Source: an uncultured Spirochaetales bacterium (GTDB taxonomy: Bacteria > Spirochaetota > Spirochaetia > Sphaerochaetales > Sphaerochaetaceae). Taken from it: 64,000 nt of DNA. The translations under genes were made by a program, and so were the position numbers. The notes beneath the pieces are model-generated. The model ran no database searches. It saw nothing but the letters and a program-made list of their open reading frames with translations, and had not been told where the DNA came from. Each line of letters opens with the position of its first letter. Within the stretch, counting starts at the first letter, position 1. This document shows, in pieces, positions 52,152-61,007 of this stretch. Where the stretch lies: NCBI GenBank assembly GCA_944390025.1, contig CALXOK010000002.1, forward strand, positions 62,001 through 126,000. Direction: 5' to 3'.

Positions 52152-53426
52152 TTAAGGTTTCAGGCAGGCTAAAGGAACGACATGGACACCATCAGGCCTG
52201 GTGTATGCGGCATTCCCGGCAGTCACAATCATCAGGAAAGATGGCACTCTCATATATCCCGTATCAATCAAGCTTGCAAGAGTCCTGAGATGCTCTGCTC
52301 CATCGTCAATATCAATCTGACGTCCTAGCTTCATTTCAATAAGCCCATAATTTCCATTACGCAAATGAATGACTGCGTCTGCTTCAAGTCCGTTGCTATC
52401 CCGATAGTGATACAATGTGCCATTCATGGCTGACGCATAAACGCTCAAATCTCTGTCACACATTGACTCAAAGAAAAGCCCGAATGTCTTCAAATCATCA
52501 ATGAGATCCTGTGGACCAAGACCAAGAATGGCTGTTGCGATTGACGGATCAGTGAACTGTCGTACAGGGGAAGACTGAATCCTTGCTCTTGATCTTATAT
52601 TAGGATTCCAGGCCGGTATATCCTCAATTACAAACAACTTCTTCAACGCGTCATAATATCTGTCAAATGTCTTCTCAGAAATAGTATCATTTCCAATATC
52701 CTTCCTGATAAGGGACTTTGTTGCCGGTGTACTAAGGTGTCTTGAGTAAGACCTGAGTAATCTTGTGAGTGTCTGAGGCGAATAATCTCCATCCAATGCT
52801 TTAGAGAAATCTGTTCTGACAAGCCCGTTACAATAGTCAAATGCCTGCTCCAGCGCGATATCTTTGTCAAGGTCTATTGCTTTTGGCCATCCTCCACGAC
52901 AAAGCCAGAATGCATAATCCATAATCGTTCTTTCGCAAACCGCTGCAACGCTCTTGCCTTCAAAAAGGTCTTTAAGTGAAACACTGCCATCTGAATCTCC
53001 TGACTCATACAAAGACATTGTTTTCATCGTCATAGTTGCGATACGTCCGATTCCTGAATGATGAATCGAATCTTTTGATACTCTGTCAAGGGGAGATACA
53101 GAACCGGTCAAAACAAACTGACCGAAACTGTCTCTGCGGTCGACTTCTATTCTGACTGCATCCCAGAGTACTGGTGCCTCCTGCCATTCATCTATGAGCA
53201 GTGGTGGTTCTTTATTCAGAAGAACAGAAGGAGCAGTTTCAGCAATAACCTTATTATTATCCCTTGTAGCAGGATCCTGCATCATTAAGACAGACTTTGC
53301 CTGTCTCATACACGTTGTTGATTTACCGCACCATTTAGGACCTTCCACAAGAACAGCACCTTTTGAGCGCAACTTAAATGAAAGAATCTGATCTGCAATT
53401 CTTGGCAAATATCTTTTCATAAACAT
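52152..53426 (-). CDS. AAA ATPase with DUF4143 (AAA_14 family)
   Basis: This 424-residue protein has an AAA_14 domain with Walker A GPKWCGKST, Walker B LLIDEWQEAP and sensor FVLTGSVSP, and a C-terminal DUF4143 restriction-like fold (ESMCDRDLSVYASAMNGTL, DSNGLEADAVIHLRNGNYGLIEMKLG). Such proteins are common, laterally mobile and of unknown function. Codon use is more AT-rich than in neighbouring genes. The ATG could be 53426 or 53420. A TATTAT hexamer lies 8 nt upstream of 53426, without a Shine-Dalgarno. Confidence 0.85.
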   Translation of the reverse strand: MFMKRYLPRIADQILSFKLRSKGAVLVEGPKWCGKSTTCMRQAKSVLMMQDPATRDNNKVIAETAPSVLLNKEPPLLIDEWQEAPVLWDAVRIEVDRRDSFGQFVLTGSVSPLDRVSKDSIHHSGIGRIATMTMKTMSLYESGDSDGSVSLKDLFEGKSVAAVCERTIMDYAFWLCRGGWPKAIDLDKDIALEQAFDYCNGLVRTDFSKALDGDYSPQTLTRLLRSYSRHLSTPATKSLIRKDIGNDTISEKTFDRYYDALKKLFVIEDIPAWNPNIRSRARIQSSPVRQFTDPSIATAILGLGPQDLIDDLKTFGLFFESMCDRDLSVYASAMNGTLYHYRDSNGLEADAVIHLRNGNYGLIEMKLGRQIDIDDGAEHLRTLASLIDTGYMRVPSFLMIVTAGNAAYTRPDGVHVVPLACLKP

Positions 53427-57214: not shown

Positions 57215-58492
57215 TCATCCTCCATAATAACTGAAGAGGTAGGAGAAGAAATTACCCTTCTCCTCTTTCAGCTCCAGAGCTGTATCAATATCCAGCCGGT
57301 GCATGTTTTCCATTATCTGGTCAAACTGCTTCAGGGATGATGATGCGAATTCCTCACTGTCAAGGACGAGGGAAATCTCATGGCTGAGTCCCATCGAGCG
57401 GTAATTTATGTTGCTTGAGCCGATGACTGTCCAGCGGCCGTCAACGACGCACAGCTTCTGATGAAGCAGGGCAAGGCCAGTCTCCTCTCCAGAATACTCG
57501 ATGAAGACGTCAAAGCCTGCATCAACGAGATTATGATAGTCATAGAAAAGAGCTCCCTGCACATACTCACGTGAATCAATGGGCACTGCGATAGTCACTT
57601 TCACTCCACGCTCAAGAGCCTCTTCAAGGCACTGATACATGTTGTCGTCGAAGAATGCGAGATAAGGCAGCATGACAATCTCCTTTTCAGCTGATGAGAA
57701 AAGAGCTGCATACATGCTTGCGACAGAAACATCACTTCCCGGTCCCTGATTGAAAAGCCAGGCATCGATATTTCCCCTGTCCTCTTCTTTGCTTAAAGGA
57801 AAGTCATCTTCACTGACTTTCACGACGCTTGTCTCGTTCCATATTGTCACGAATTCCTTTATCAGGGCCTGTGCAAGAGACGGGGAGCGGAAGACATACA
57901 TGCTGTCCCGCTGCAGGTTGATATCATCGGCGCCCATGGAAATGTAGTTCATGTTCATGCCGCCAAGAGCACACCAGAGGCCATCTACGATGACCATCTT
58001 CCTGTGCTCTCTGATAAGAAGGCTTGTCGGATGAATGATATTAAGTGCACTGAGCGGATTATACTCAATCAGATGGACCCCGCTTTCTCTGAGGAAATAC
58101 AGAGGGAACATATGGTCGGCACTTGCTGTCATGTCATAGCTTGAGACACCGTCAATGATCATATAAACATCAACACCGCGCTCGCTTGCACGGGCAATAC
58201 TGTCATAAAGCTCTTCAAGGCCTTCACAGGAACTGCCGAGGAATGTCGTGATGACAAGATATTCCTCTGCGCTGTTTACAAGCTGTATGTAGCGCTCCAG
58301 AAAAGACGGCGCGTCAAAGTACATCTCCGGATAAGGAACACTGACGCGGATGCCGCCACCGGCATCCAGCTTCTGTTCTGCCGGCAGATTTGGATCAGAA
58401 AGCGTTCCATCGACAAAGGGCTCACTGAGTGCACAGGATGAAAGAATCATCACAGCAAGTGCCATCAGGAGGAAGCATGAGAATCTCTTCAT
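57215..58492 (-). CDS. Phospholipase D/cardiolipin synthase-like lipoprotein
   Basis: This 425-residue protein has a signal with lipobox LSSC (Cys20) and two complete HKD motifs: HRKMVIVD at 163-170 and HQKLCVVD at 344-351. The fold is that of the PLD superfamily (cardiolipin synthase, nuclease, phosphatidyl transferases). Lipid attachment puts it outside the cytoplasm, unlike canonical cardiolipin synthases, which are membrane-embedded. It lies 5 bp after the HAD-deaminase gene. Confidence 0.82.
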   Translation of the reverse strand: MKRFSCFLLMALAVMILSSCALSEPFVDGTLSDPNLPAEQKLDAGGGIRVSVPYPEMYFDAPSFLERYIQLVNSAEEYLVITTFLGSSCEGLEELYDSIARASERGVDVYMIIDGVSSYDMTASADHMFPLYFLRESGVHLIEYNPLSALNIIHPTSLLIREHRKMVIVDGLWCALGGMNMNYISMGADDINLQRDSMYVFRSPSLAQALIKEFVTIWNETSVVKVSEDDFPLSKEEDRGNIDAWLFNQGPGSDVSVASMYAALFSSAEKEIVMLPYLAFFDDNMYQCLEEALERGVKVTIAVPIDSREYVQGALFYDYHNLVDAGFDVFIEYSGEETGLALLHQKLCVVDGRWTVIGSSNINYRSMGLSHEISLVLDSEEFASSSLKQFDQIMENMHRLDIDTALELKEEKGNFFSYLFSYYGG

Positions 58493-58497
58493 ATGTT

Positions 58498-59643
58498 TTA
58501 TTTTCTTTCAGAAGGGAAAATAAATGGATTTGGCAGCAGCTCGCTGAAACGGTACTCTGCCCTCTTGCCCTCCAAGGATGAAAGTATAACAAGAGAGTCC
58601 GGGGCTGTAAACTCAGCCAGTACCTGAAGGCACATGGCACACGGAGGAGCCGGAGGATTGTCGTCAGAGACTACGACAAGCGTCTCGACACCTATTGTAC
58701 CTTCCTGAGCGATTGCATTCAGCAAAGCATTGCGCTCAGCACATATTGTCGCTCCGAATGATGAGTTTTCCACATTGCATCCTGTGTAGATGCGTCCTGT
58801 CGCTGCAGACTTGATACATGCCCCGACCTTGAAATGGGAATAAGGGGTATATGCATGCTCCCTTGTCTTAGCCGCAGCCTCAATCATCGCATCAATGCTT
58901 ATTTCAGTAATTTTCTTCTTATGCTCAAGGATATAGTTTGCTCCATAGAGTTTTCTTCTGTCTTCGCCGCCTTCAAGATTTTCAATAACTTCATTCATTG
59001 TGTTTCCTCCGATAAAAACACCAACATCACTTGCGATGAAGGTGGCACCTGCACTGGCAAGGCCGCCCACAGAAAGCGTTCCCGTCACTCCAAGTGATTT
59101 CATTCCGGCATCTTCTGCCGCCCTGAGGCCGTTCTCGCTGTCCTCAACGACAAGACAGTGCGAAGGCTCCTTTCCAAGAAGTCGGGCAGCTGTCCGGTAT
59201 ATTTCCCCGTCTGGCTTGTTACATTTCACACTTTCTCCTGAGAGGATGAGGTCAAAATCTGACTCCTCCAGACCAACTGTCCTGATATTGCTCACTGCCT
59301 TCCACCGCGGAGCCGATGTGCATACGGCAAGCGTGAAACCAAGTCTTTTAAGATGGCGCACAGCAAGGACGCTTGTCCTTACACCTTCAGGGAAGGTCCT
59401 GTGGACAAGTTCATCGTAATGCTCCCGGAACCAGAAGGAAGCTTCTTCAAGGTCAACCTTATAGCCATGGCTTTCCGCAGGACCGGTGAAAAAGACTTTC
59501 TCTCCGGCTCCGAGCCAGGGTGTCACATCTTCATTCCTCAGCTTCAGCCCCTTTGAGCTGAAATACTCGACACAAAGGCGTACTGAAACAGGCTCGCTGT
59601 CAATCAGCACACCGTCCATGTCAAAAAGAACCGTATCAATCAT
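58498..59643 (-). CDS. HAD hydrolase fused to cytidine deaminase
   Basis: This 381-residue fusion has HAD motif I DMDGVLIDSEP (residues 8-18), CTSAP, a KPDGEIY motif and GDS-like VVEDSENGLRAAE (165-177), a beta-phosphoglucomutase-like subgroup. A cytidine deaminase domain follows from about residue 250, with 'GCNVENSSFGATICAERNAL' (288-307; CAE at 301-303) and PCAMC at 334-338. The last motif reads CAMCLQ, not CGACRQ. An internal ATG (58998, Met216) has GGAGG 7 nt upstream. It may act on pyrimidine nucleotides and nucleosides. It overlaps the hydantoinase gene by 4 bp. Confidence 0.88.
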   Translation of the reverse strand: MIDTVLFDMDGVLIDSEPVSVRLCVEYFSSKGLKLRNEDVTPWLGAGEKVFFTGPAESHGYKVDLEEASFWFREHYDELVHRTFPEGVRTSVLAVRHLKRLGFTLAVCTSAPRWKAVSNIRTVGLEESDFDLILSGESVKCNKPDGEIYRTAARLLGKEPSHCLVVEDSENGLRAAEDAGMKSLGVTGTLSVGGLASAGATFIASDVGVFIGGNTMNEVIENLEGGEDRRKLYGANYILEHKKKITEISIDAMIEAAAKTREHAYTPYSHFKVGACIKSAATGRIYTGCNVENSSFGATICAERNALLNAIAQEGTIGVETLVVVSDDNPPAPPCAMCLQVLAEFTAPDSLVILSSLEGKRAEYRFSELLPNPFIFPSERK

Positions 59644-61007
59644 CGGACCTTTATGAATCTTCCATCTCCCGGAATTCCGAGATACATGTCACCGCCCATG
59701 ATAAGCCTGCCACGCAGGTATGTCATGACAACATGTCCGATGACAGGCATTCCGTCATATGCCGTGTAGCCGCACTCGGAATGGATATTGTCATTTGACA
59801 GCGTCCATGACACATCAGGGTTGAAAACCACGATATCCGCATCACTGCCCTCTCTAAGAGCGCCTTTCTGAGGATAAAGACCGAAGTACTTCGCCGGCCC
59901 TGTTGAAAGCACGTTGACCATCTCATTGAGCGTGAGCAGCGCACCGTTGGCGACAAGGTTGTGAATAAGAGGAAGCATTTCCTCGCTTCCGGGGATTCCC
60001 GGATAGATTGTCCTCACATCATTGCTTTCCAGCTTCTGTGCCCTGGTGAACGAACAGTGGTCTGTTGCGACAACCTGAATCTCTCCGTTGCACAGCGCTT
60101 CCTGAAGCGCCTCATTGTCCTCCTCATCCCTGAGTGGCGGAGTCATGATGTATAAAGAGGCATCGCTGCCTTCGAGTTTCTTCCTGTTGAGGAAAAGATA
60201 ATGAGGTGTAGTCTCTACAACGAGATCCAGTCCCCTGTCCCTCAGTCTGCGGACAGCCTCAAGGCCTTCCTTGCTTGAAAGATGGACTATGTAAAGCTGC
60301 GCTCCAGTCTCCAGGGCGAGCTCACCGACCTTCTCAATCGCAAGAGCCTCAGCATGTGCCGGGCGGAGAACAGGATGGTCAGCGGCTCTGTAGTCACCTT
60401 TATAGGAAGCCTCGATGGAAGCCAGGAACTCATCATCTTCACAGTGGACACAGACCATCAGGCCGAGATCAGCGCACATTGAGAATATTTGCTTAAGCTC
60501 CTCACGTTTCTCGATGAGATAGCCGGCATCACGGTATGTGGTGAACAGCTTGATGGCCCTGCAGCCGGCATCCCGGACTGCCTTAAGTTCATCGTAAAGG
60601 CCTTCTCGGAAGGCATAGACACCCTGATGGATTGCAAAGTCGATGCTCATGTCAGCACCCATCGCATCCGCTCTTGACTTGAATGAGGAAACAAGGCTCT
60701 TCTTGTCATCATCCGCGAAATCGATGACTGTGGTCACGCCTCCATAGCTTGCCGCCTTGCTTCCTTCCTTGAAGCTGTCGGCAGTGACAGTCCCGCGTGA
60801 GACGAGATGATAATGGGTATGCGCATCAATGATGCCAGGAAGGACAAGCAGTCCGTCAGCATGTACGACTGTGACATTGTCAGGAATTGAGTCCGGATTT
60901 ATATGAGGGGCAATCCTGACGATTTTAGATCCTCGGACAAGGATGTCCGCACGCCTTTTCCACTCTGTGTCTATCAGTAGACCATTCTGAATCAAAATAC
61001 AGCTCAT
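59640..61007 (-). CDS. Dihydropyrimidinase/D-hydantoinase-like amidohydrolase
   Basis: This 455-residue cyclic amidohydrolase has the metal site DAHTHYHL (residues 61-68), the carboxylated Lys in AIKLFTTY, VHLSSKEGLEAV and ATDHCSFTRAQK with a catalytic Asp. It hydrolyses 5,6-dihydropyrimidines or hydantoins. Coupling to a cytidine deaminase suggests pyrimidine breakdown. The ATG has no Shine-Dalgarno; TAATAT ends 6 nt before it. No dihydropyrimidine dehydrogenase or ureidopropionase is seen. Confidence 0.85.
   Translation of the reverse strand: MSCILIQNGLLIDTEWKRRADILVRGSKIVRIAPHINPDSIPDNVTVVHADGLLVLPGIIDAHTHYHLVSRGTVTADSFKEGSKAASYGGVTTVIDFADDDKKSLVSSFKSRADAMGADMSIDFAIHQGVYAFREGLYDELKAVRDAGCRAIKLFTTYRDAGYLIEKREELKQIFSMCADLGLMVCVHCEDDEFLASIEASYKGDYRAADHPVLRPAHAEALAIEKVGELALETGAQLYIVHLSSKEGLEAVRRLRDRGLDLVVETTPHYLFLNRKKLEGSDASLYIMTPPLRDEEDNEALQEALCNGEIQVVATDHCSFTRAQKLESNDVRTIYPGIPGSEEMLPLIHNLVANGALLTLNEMVNVLSTGPAKYFGLYPQKGALREGSDADIVVFNPDVSWTLSNDNIHSECGYTAYDGMPVIGHVVMTYLRGRLIMGGDMYLGIPGDGRFIKVR

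Follow-up and report, generated by a model that had tools for sequence, protein, structure and literature searches.

A HAD phosphatase-cytidine deaminase fusion gene in Sphaerochaetaceae and the Shine-Dalgarno sequence and ATG inside it

The fused gene and its surroundings

The window analysed is a 64,000-nucleotide stretch of DNA from an uncultured Spirochaetales bacterium of the family Sphaerochaetaceae. Near one end it carries a gene in which a HAD phosphatase is joined to a cytidine deaminase, with a Shine-Dalgarno (SD)-like sequence and an ATG inside the frame. The features are as follows.

57215..58492, minus strand: phospholipase D (PLD)-like protein, directly downstream of the fusion, syntenic in the family
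58498..59643, minus strand: HAD-cytidine deaminase fusion gene, 381 aa, ATG start, with family-wide homologues
58501..58896, minus strand: tetrameric-type cytidine deaminase domain, residues 250-381, with CAE 301-303 and PCAMC 334-338
58897..58974, minus strand: linker, residues 224-249, with low-confidence residues 226-228 followed by a predicted beta hairpin 230-239 (RKLYGANYIL)
58975..59643, minus strand: HAD-IA phosphatase domain, residues 1-223 including the C-terminal helix 216-223, with conserved DMDG, Lys143 and Glu167-Asp168
58996..58998, minus strand: in-frame ATG (Met216), at which a 166-aa deaminase may start
59006..59010, minus strand: GGAGG, internal SD-like sequence, separated from the ATG by the 7-nt spacer AAACACA
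59640..61007, minus strand: dihydropyrimidinase-like amidohydrolase, directly upstream of the fusion, with a 4-nt overlap with the fusion start (ATGA)

The sequence-only reading of the window had described one frame joining the two enzymes, and this is borne out by 381 codons with Pfam matches to both domains and a TIGR match to the deaminase. The HAD profiles PF00702 (residues 2-180) and PF13419 (residues 5-186) match over their cut-offs. The deaminase is matched by PF00383 (residues 252-348) and TIGR01354 (residues 252-374), the latter with 125.2 bits against a curated cut-off of 113.65. The HAD-IA residues D8-M-D10-G, K143 and E167-D168 are present here and in 95-96 of 99 fused genes, and the zinc motif of tetrameric deaminases (C301-A-E303, P334-C335, and C338) in 98-99 of 99. 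Both domains of the fusion keep their catalytic residues in about 95-99 of the 99 genes. None of the named HAD phosphatase equivalog models listed reaches its cut-off for the HAD domain.

In an AlphaFold2 model of the fusion (mean pLDDT 89, pTM 0.60), residues 216-223 form a helix, confidence is low for 226-228, residues 230-239 fold as a hairpin, and the deaminase starts at 250. HADs in the PDB align to the model through residue 221-226 (over residues 1-223/225 for the HAD half), and the free HAD of another spirochaete (L280) ends with a segment matching helix 216-223. On the model, the solved HADs and the free spirochaete HAD, helix 216-223 belongs to the HAD and the linker is residues 224-249. 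The earlier statement that GGAGG lies exactly 7 nt ahead of the in-frame ATG at 58998 (Met216), with 166 residues left, is confirmed in the DNA. Its placing of this start at the junction holds in part: the ATG is near the domain boundary but opens the last helix of the HAD, not the linker, because solved HADs align through residues 221-226 and the free HAD of L280 shares the segment. A YGxx motif in the linker is found in 74 of the 99 fused genes. The YGAN-type hairpin motif of the window (58927-58956, residues 230-239) is missing in the other 25 and is retained in a free deaminase of genome G002.

The dihydropyrimidinase-like neighbour has been found in nearly all fused loci examined, and the row of dihydropyrimidinase-like gene, fusion, PLD gene and two genes for small proteins is conserved in most loci read. 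The upstream gene scores 371.8 bits against the dihydropyrimidinase model TIGR02033, short of the cut-off of 393.25, and is therefore called dihydropyrimidinase-like only. Pairing of the anti-SD at the ATG of the fusion is weak (-3.5 kcal/mol, against -9.5 at Met216), which together with the ATGA overlap suggests translational coupling to the upstream gene. Elsewhere in the window, an ORF for a P-loop ATPase-like protein (52152-53426) separates the aldehyde/alcohol dehydrogenase gene from the gene of an Lrp-type regulator; in G002 (L201) these two genes are adjacent and the ORF is missing between them.

Distribution of the fusion and loss of the HAD domain

A search of 139 genomes of the window's family (E<=1e-25) returned matches in 119, which mostly span the whole fusion, and about 99 fused genes that were extracted and aligned show both domains. 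Database neighbours from Ca. Ornithospirochaeta, Ca. Aphodenecus and Sphaerochaeta point to Sphaerochaetaceae as the probable family. A search at the level of the order gave the same set. In a phylum sample of 393 genomes, matches outside the family cover one domain at a time, and separate HAD and deaminase genes are present in four non-family spirochaete genomes from which both loci were fetched (G387, G417, G437, and G480). The fusion is a family-wide trait, spanning genera of the family. Two variants were also seen. In genus g6 (L204:623-1663, L205:641-1666), a HAD homologue carries a C-terminal tail of ~120 residues with no Pfam match in place of the deaminase. L182 (G067) and G119:C20:26070-27161 match along the fused gene with one in-frame TGA, for which decay or sequencing error is possible.

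Comparison of the junction in relatives, as the sequence-only reading had proposed, reveals that split and fused versions both exist. Four genomes of the window's genus have the deaminase alone at the operon position of the fusion (L201:5420-5872 in G002, L202 in G006, L203 in G004, and L018 in G003). A tree of three neighbouring proteins (amidohydrolase, PLD and deaminase domain) requires two changes to the free state, each placed among fused genes. As the outgroups are fused, the tree points to an ancestral fused state and to two losses of the HAD at the same gene position. G002 falls inside the clade of genes with Met216 (support 100/100 for the clade of ten, and 92/90 for the group within it). 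The free deaminase of G002 is preceded by AAGGAGC-TGA-A-ATG, much like the context of the HAD start in L008, and runs on with LYGAN (residue 232 on), so that its start is not at Met216. These sequences fit an in-frame deletion that would have retained the old HAD start. The free deaminases of G003, G004, and G006 are without HAD and linker. No close copy of the HAD was found elsewhere in the four genomes, the best match having 30-32% identity (G003 is 62% complete). The two losses show that the deaminase does not need the HAD phosphatase.

The internal Shine-Dalgarno sequence and ATG

The signal at Met216 was compared with a background of 385 kb of the window's genome, in which simple longest-ORF gene calls gave 336 ORFs. 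A strong SD stands at proper spacing before the in-frame ATG, and anti-SD pairing at -9.5 kcal/mol compares with a median of -1.9. Local structure is weak, and the combined score of SD and fold is in the top 0.25% of the 1,986 internal in-frame ATGs. The score also beats 86% of longest-ORF starts, a comparison that flatters Met216, as such starts are not always the true ones. Taken singly, Met216 is a strong candidate start. GGAGG at 5-9 nt before an internal in-frame ATG occurs in 7 of these 1,986 ATGs (0.35%), and ~30 such sites are expected across the 1.83-Mb genome. ATGs in the +1 phase have it in 12 of 3,213 cases, and in the 385 kb there is no enrichment in frame over out of frame.

Met216 is present in eight fused genes, all of the window's genus (the window and L004-L010). 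Other fused genes of the family have different residues at this place, often in an F-S-S-x-E-E-L-like helix, which dates the internal start to after the fusion. Met216, G213, L223, and D228 are invariant across the eight genes, while fourfold sites between their five lineages are near saturation (about 25-40% identity). Pairing at Met216 is -9.5 in the window, -8.4 in L004, -4.8 in L005, -10.3 in L006, and -9.1 in L007; at Met215 it is -2.0 in L008, -7.6 in L009, and -2.0 in L010. The close relatives L004 and L005 (92% amino acid identity) thus differ in their SD. L008-L010 also have a second strong SD and ATG at codon 221 (GAGGTGAATGAC-ATG, -11.7 kcal/mol), with the Met216-equivalent site weaker there. 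The sequence-only reading had made loss of GGAGG and ATG in related fused genes a point against the internal start, and on this the relatives are divided. Most of the family has lost the pair, as have L005 and, at Met215, L008 and L010. There is no loss in L004, which has GGGGG in place of GGAGG, or in L006 and L007, and L008-L010 have the other strong SD and ATG six codons on.

When synonymous codons were permuted with the protein held fixed, a test that is blind to selection acting through amino acids, pairing as strong or stronger was obtained in 15-64% of draws per gene (p 0.15-0.64; combined p about 0.4-0.6). These codon shuffles give no synonymous selection for the SD and no conservation beyond that of the protein; since they reach equal or stronger pairing, the protein sequence accounts for the signal. 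In a control with conserved internal methionines of orthologues (n=298 and n=119), a strong SD was shared by the second genome in 4 of 9 and 2 of 4 cases, so that persistence of a strong SD alone is unremarkable. Seven of the eight clade genes have a strong SD and ATG within residues 205-245, compared with 2 of the 91 remaining fused genes, and elsewhere the genes of the clade have almost none. This contrast near the junction is suggestive only, since the eight share descent and the interval was picked once the site had been noticed. Overall, the internal start is real as sequence and derived, and the comparisons show no sign of its upkeep for its own sake.

Interpretation and comparison with known systems

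The best explanation, held as probable, is one bifunctional enzyme descended from an old family-wide fusion, with an internal start that is incidental to the protein sequence. The protein would combine an N-terminal HAD-IA phosphatase with a C-terminal deaminase of the tetrameric type. The HAD is predicted to release phosphate from a metabolite, perhaps CMP or dCMP, and the deaminase to turn (deoxy)cytidine into (deoxy)uridine. Translation would begin mainly at the first ATG, with the ATGA overlap coupling it to that of the upstream gene. GGAGG and ATG arose later, in one clade of the genus, in codons of the last turn and helix of the HAD (Gly-Gly-x-x-Met), and may cause some leaky internal initiation.

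It is less likely, though a serious alternative, that the gene gives two products, the fusion and a free 18-kDa deaminase from Met216 (Met221 in L008-L010). Deaminase subunits would then outnumber the phosphatase and may join mixed tetramers. The SD and ATG are strong and accessible (top 0.25%, with stronger pairing than at the HAD's own start), but the codon shuffles find no synonymous signal for that SD, and the ATG cuts within the HAD rather than in the linker. Invariance of Met216 over five diverged lineages with near-saturated fourfold sites argues for two products, yet such persistence matches that of conserved methionines generally. A strong site near the junction in seven of the eight clade genes, absent from most of their other stretches, points the same way, as does the G002 gene, whose free deaminase keeps a portion of the same extension at its N-terminus; the SD is weak in L005, and fused genes outside the clade are without the site. 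The weaker Met215 and strong Met221 of L008-L010 could be turnover of a working start. A related reading, considered unlikely, is that the clade gained a functional internal start whose position drifts (Met216, Met221) and which would give a free deaminase beside the fusion, tuning how much deaminase is made relative to phosphatase. If so, the two HAD losses in the genus would be where a greater need for the deaminase than for the phosphatase finally leads. With a working internal start, the fusion gene would have won back a separate product.

The sequence-only reading had also offered an evolved fusion in which the ancestral start of a free deaminase survives. The nearness of the site to the domain boundary would agree with this, as would the occurrence of HAD and deaminase as free genes in other members of the phylum, but other residues stand at this place in the fused outgroups, the segment begun by Met216 is already present in a free HAD, and free deaminases elsewhere start about 30 residues later. 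With the start absent from outgroups and free homologues alike, and the split versions in the genus being later HAD losses, the proposal is contradicted and has been rejected as very improbable. Still more improbable is that two genes were joined by an error of assembly or frame. The window does come from a draft assembly of 41 contigs, but the frame is also fused in some 95 further assemblies, including several single-contig genomes, and this explanation has been rejected.

The fusion is most simply read as a phosphatase that hands its nucleoside on to the deaminase. Pyrimidine reductive catabolism was considered as the theme of the operon and rejected: a search of the window's own genome (assembly about 86% complete) with the PreA/DPD model gave sub-cut-off matches only, with no dihydropyrimidine dehydrogenase over cut-off, and the upstream gene is below the dihydropyrimidinase cut-off. 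Genes of uridine kinase and of the nucleoside phosphorylase family are present in the same genome and single out no pathway. The family-wide fusion is a Rosetta-stone hint that the substrate of the HAD lies in pyrimidine salvage, and the double loss of the HAD, with the deaminase kept at the same locus, offers a clean natural comparison. No paper on the HAD-cytidine deaminase architecture was found in the literature searched, which is no proof of absence.

Both halves of the protein have solved relatives. The HAD domain shares fold and catalytic motifs with HAD-IA phosphatases of the CbbY, beta-phosphoglucomutase and TM_1254 type (4uar, 1lvh, and 3kbb). Among solved proteins, TM_1254 is closest in sequence (30% identity in the Foldseek alignment), and AlnB (4ex6/4ex7) is the best structural match (Z 26, rmsd 2.3). 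Unlike these proteins, the HAD described here is fused to a deaminase and stays below the equivalog cut-offs of the named models listed. The deaminase domain has 37-40% identity to Bacillus subtilis Cdd (1jtk) and the B. anthracis enzyme 2d30, with which it shares the CAE and PCxxC motifs; in contrast to them, it carries an N-terminal HAD and the YGAN hairpin extension. MtlD of Acinetobacter (7ocs and 7ocn) likewise has an N-terminal HAD-IA phosphatase on a second metabolic enzyme, which is a dehydrogenase in MtlD and a deaminase in the window. For archaeal Cas11b, one report (PMC11899642) describes an internal in-frame start that gives a shorter product, as shown by experiment. The candidate start at Met216 would likewise yield the C-terminal part of a protein from the same frame, with the sequence signal as the evidence here and experiment as the evidence for Cas11b.
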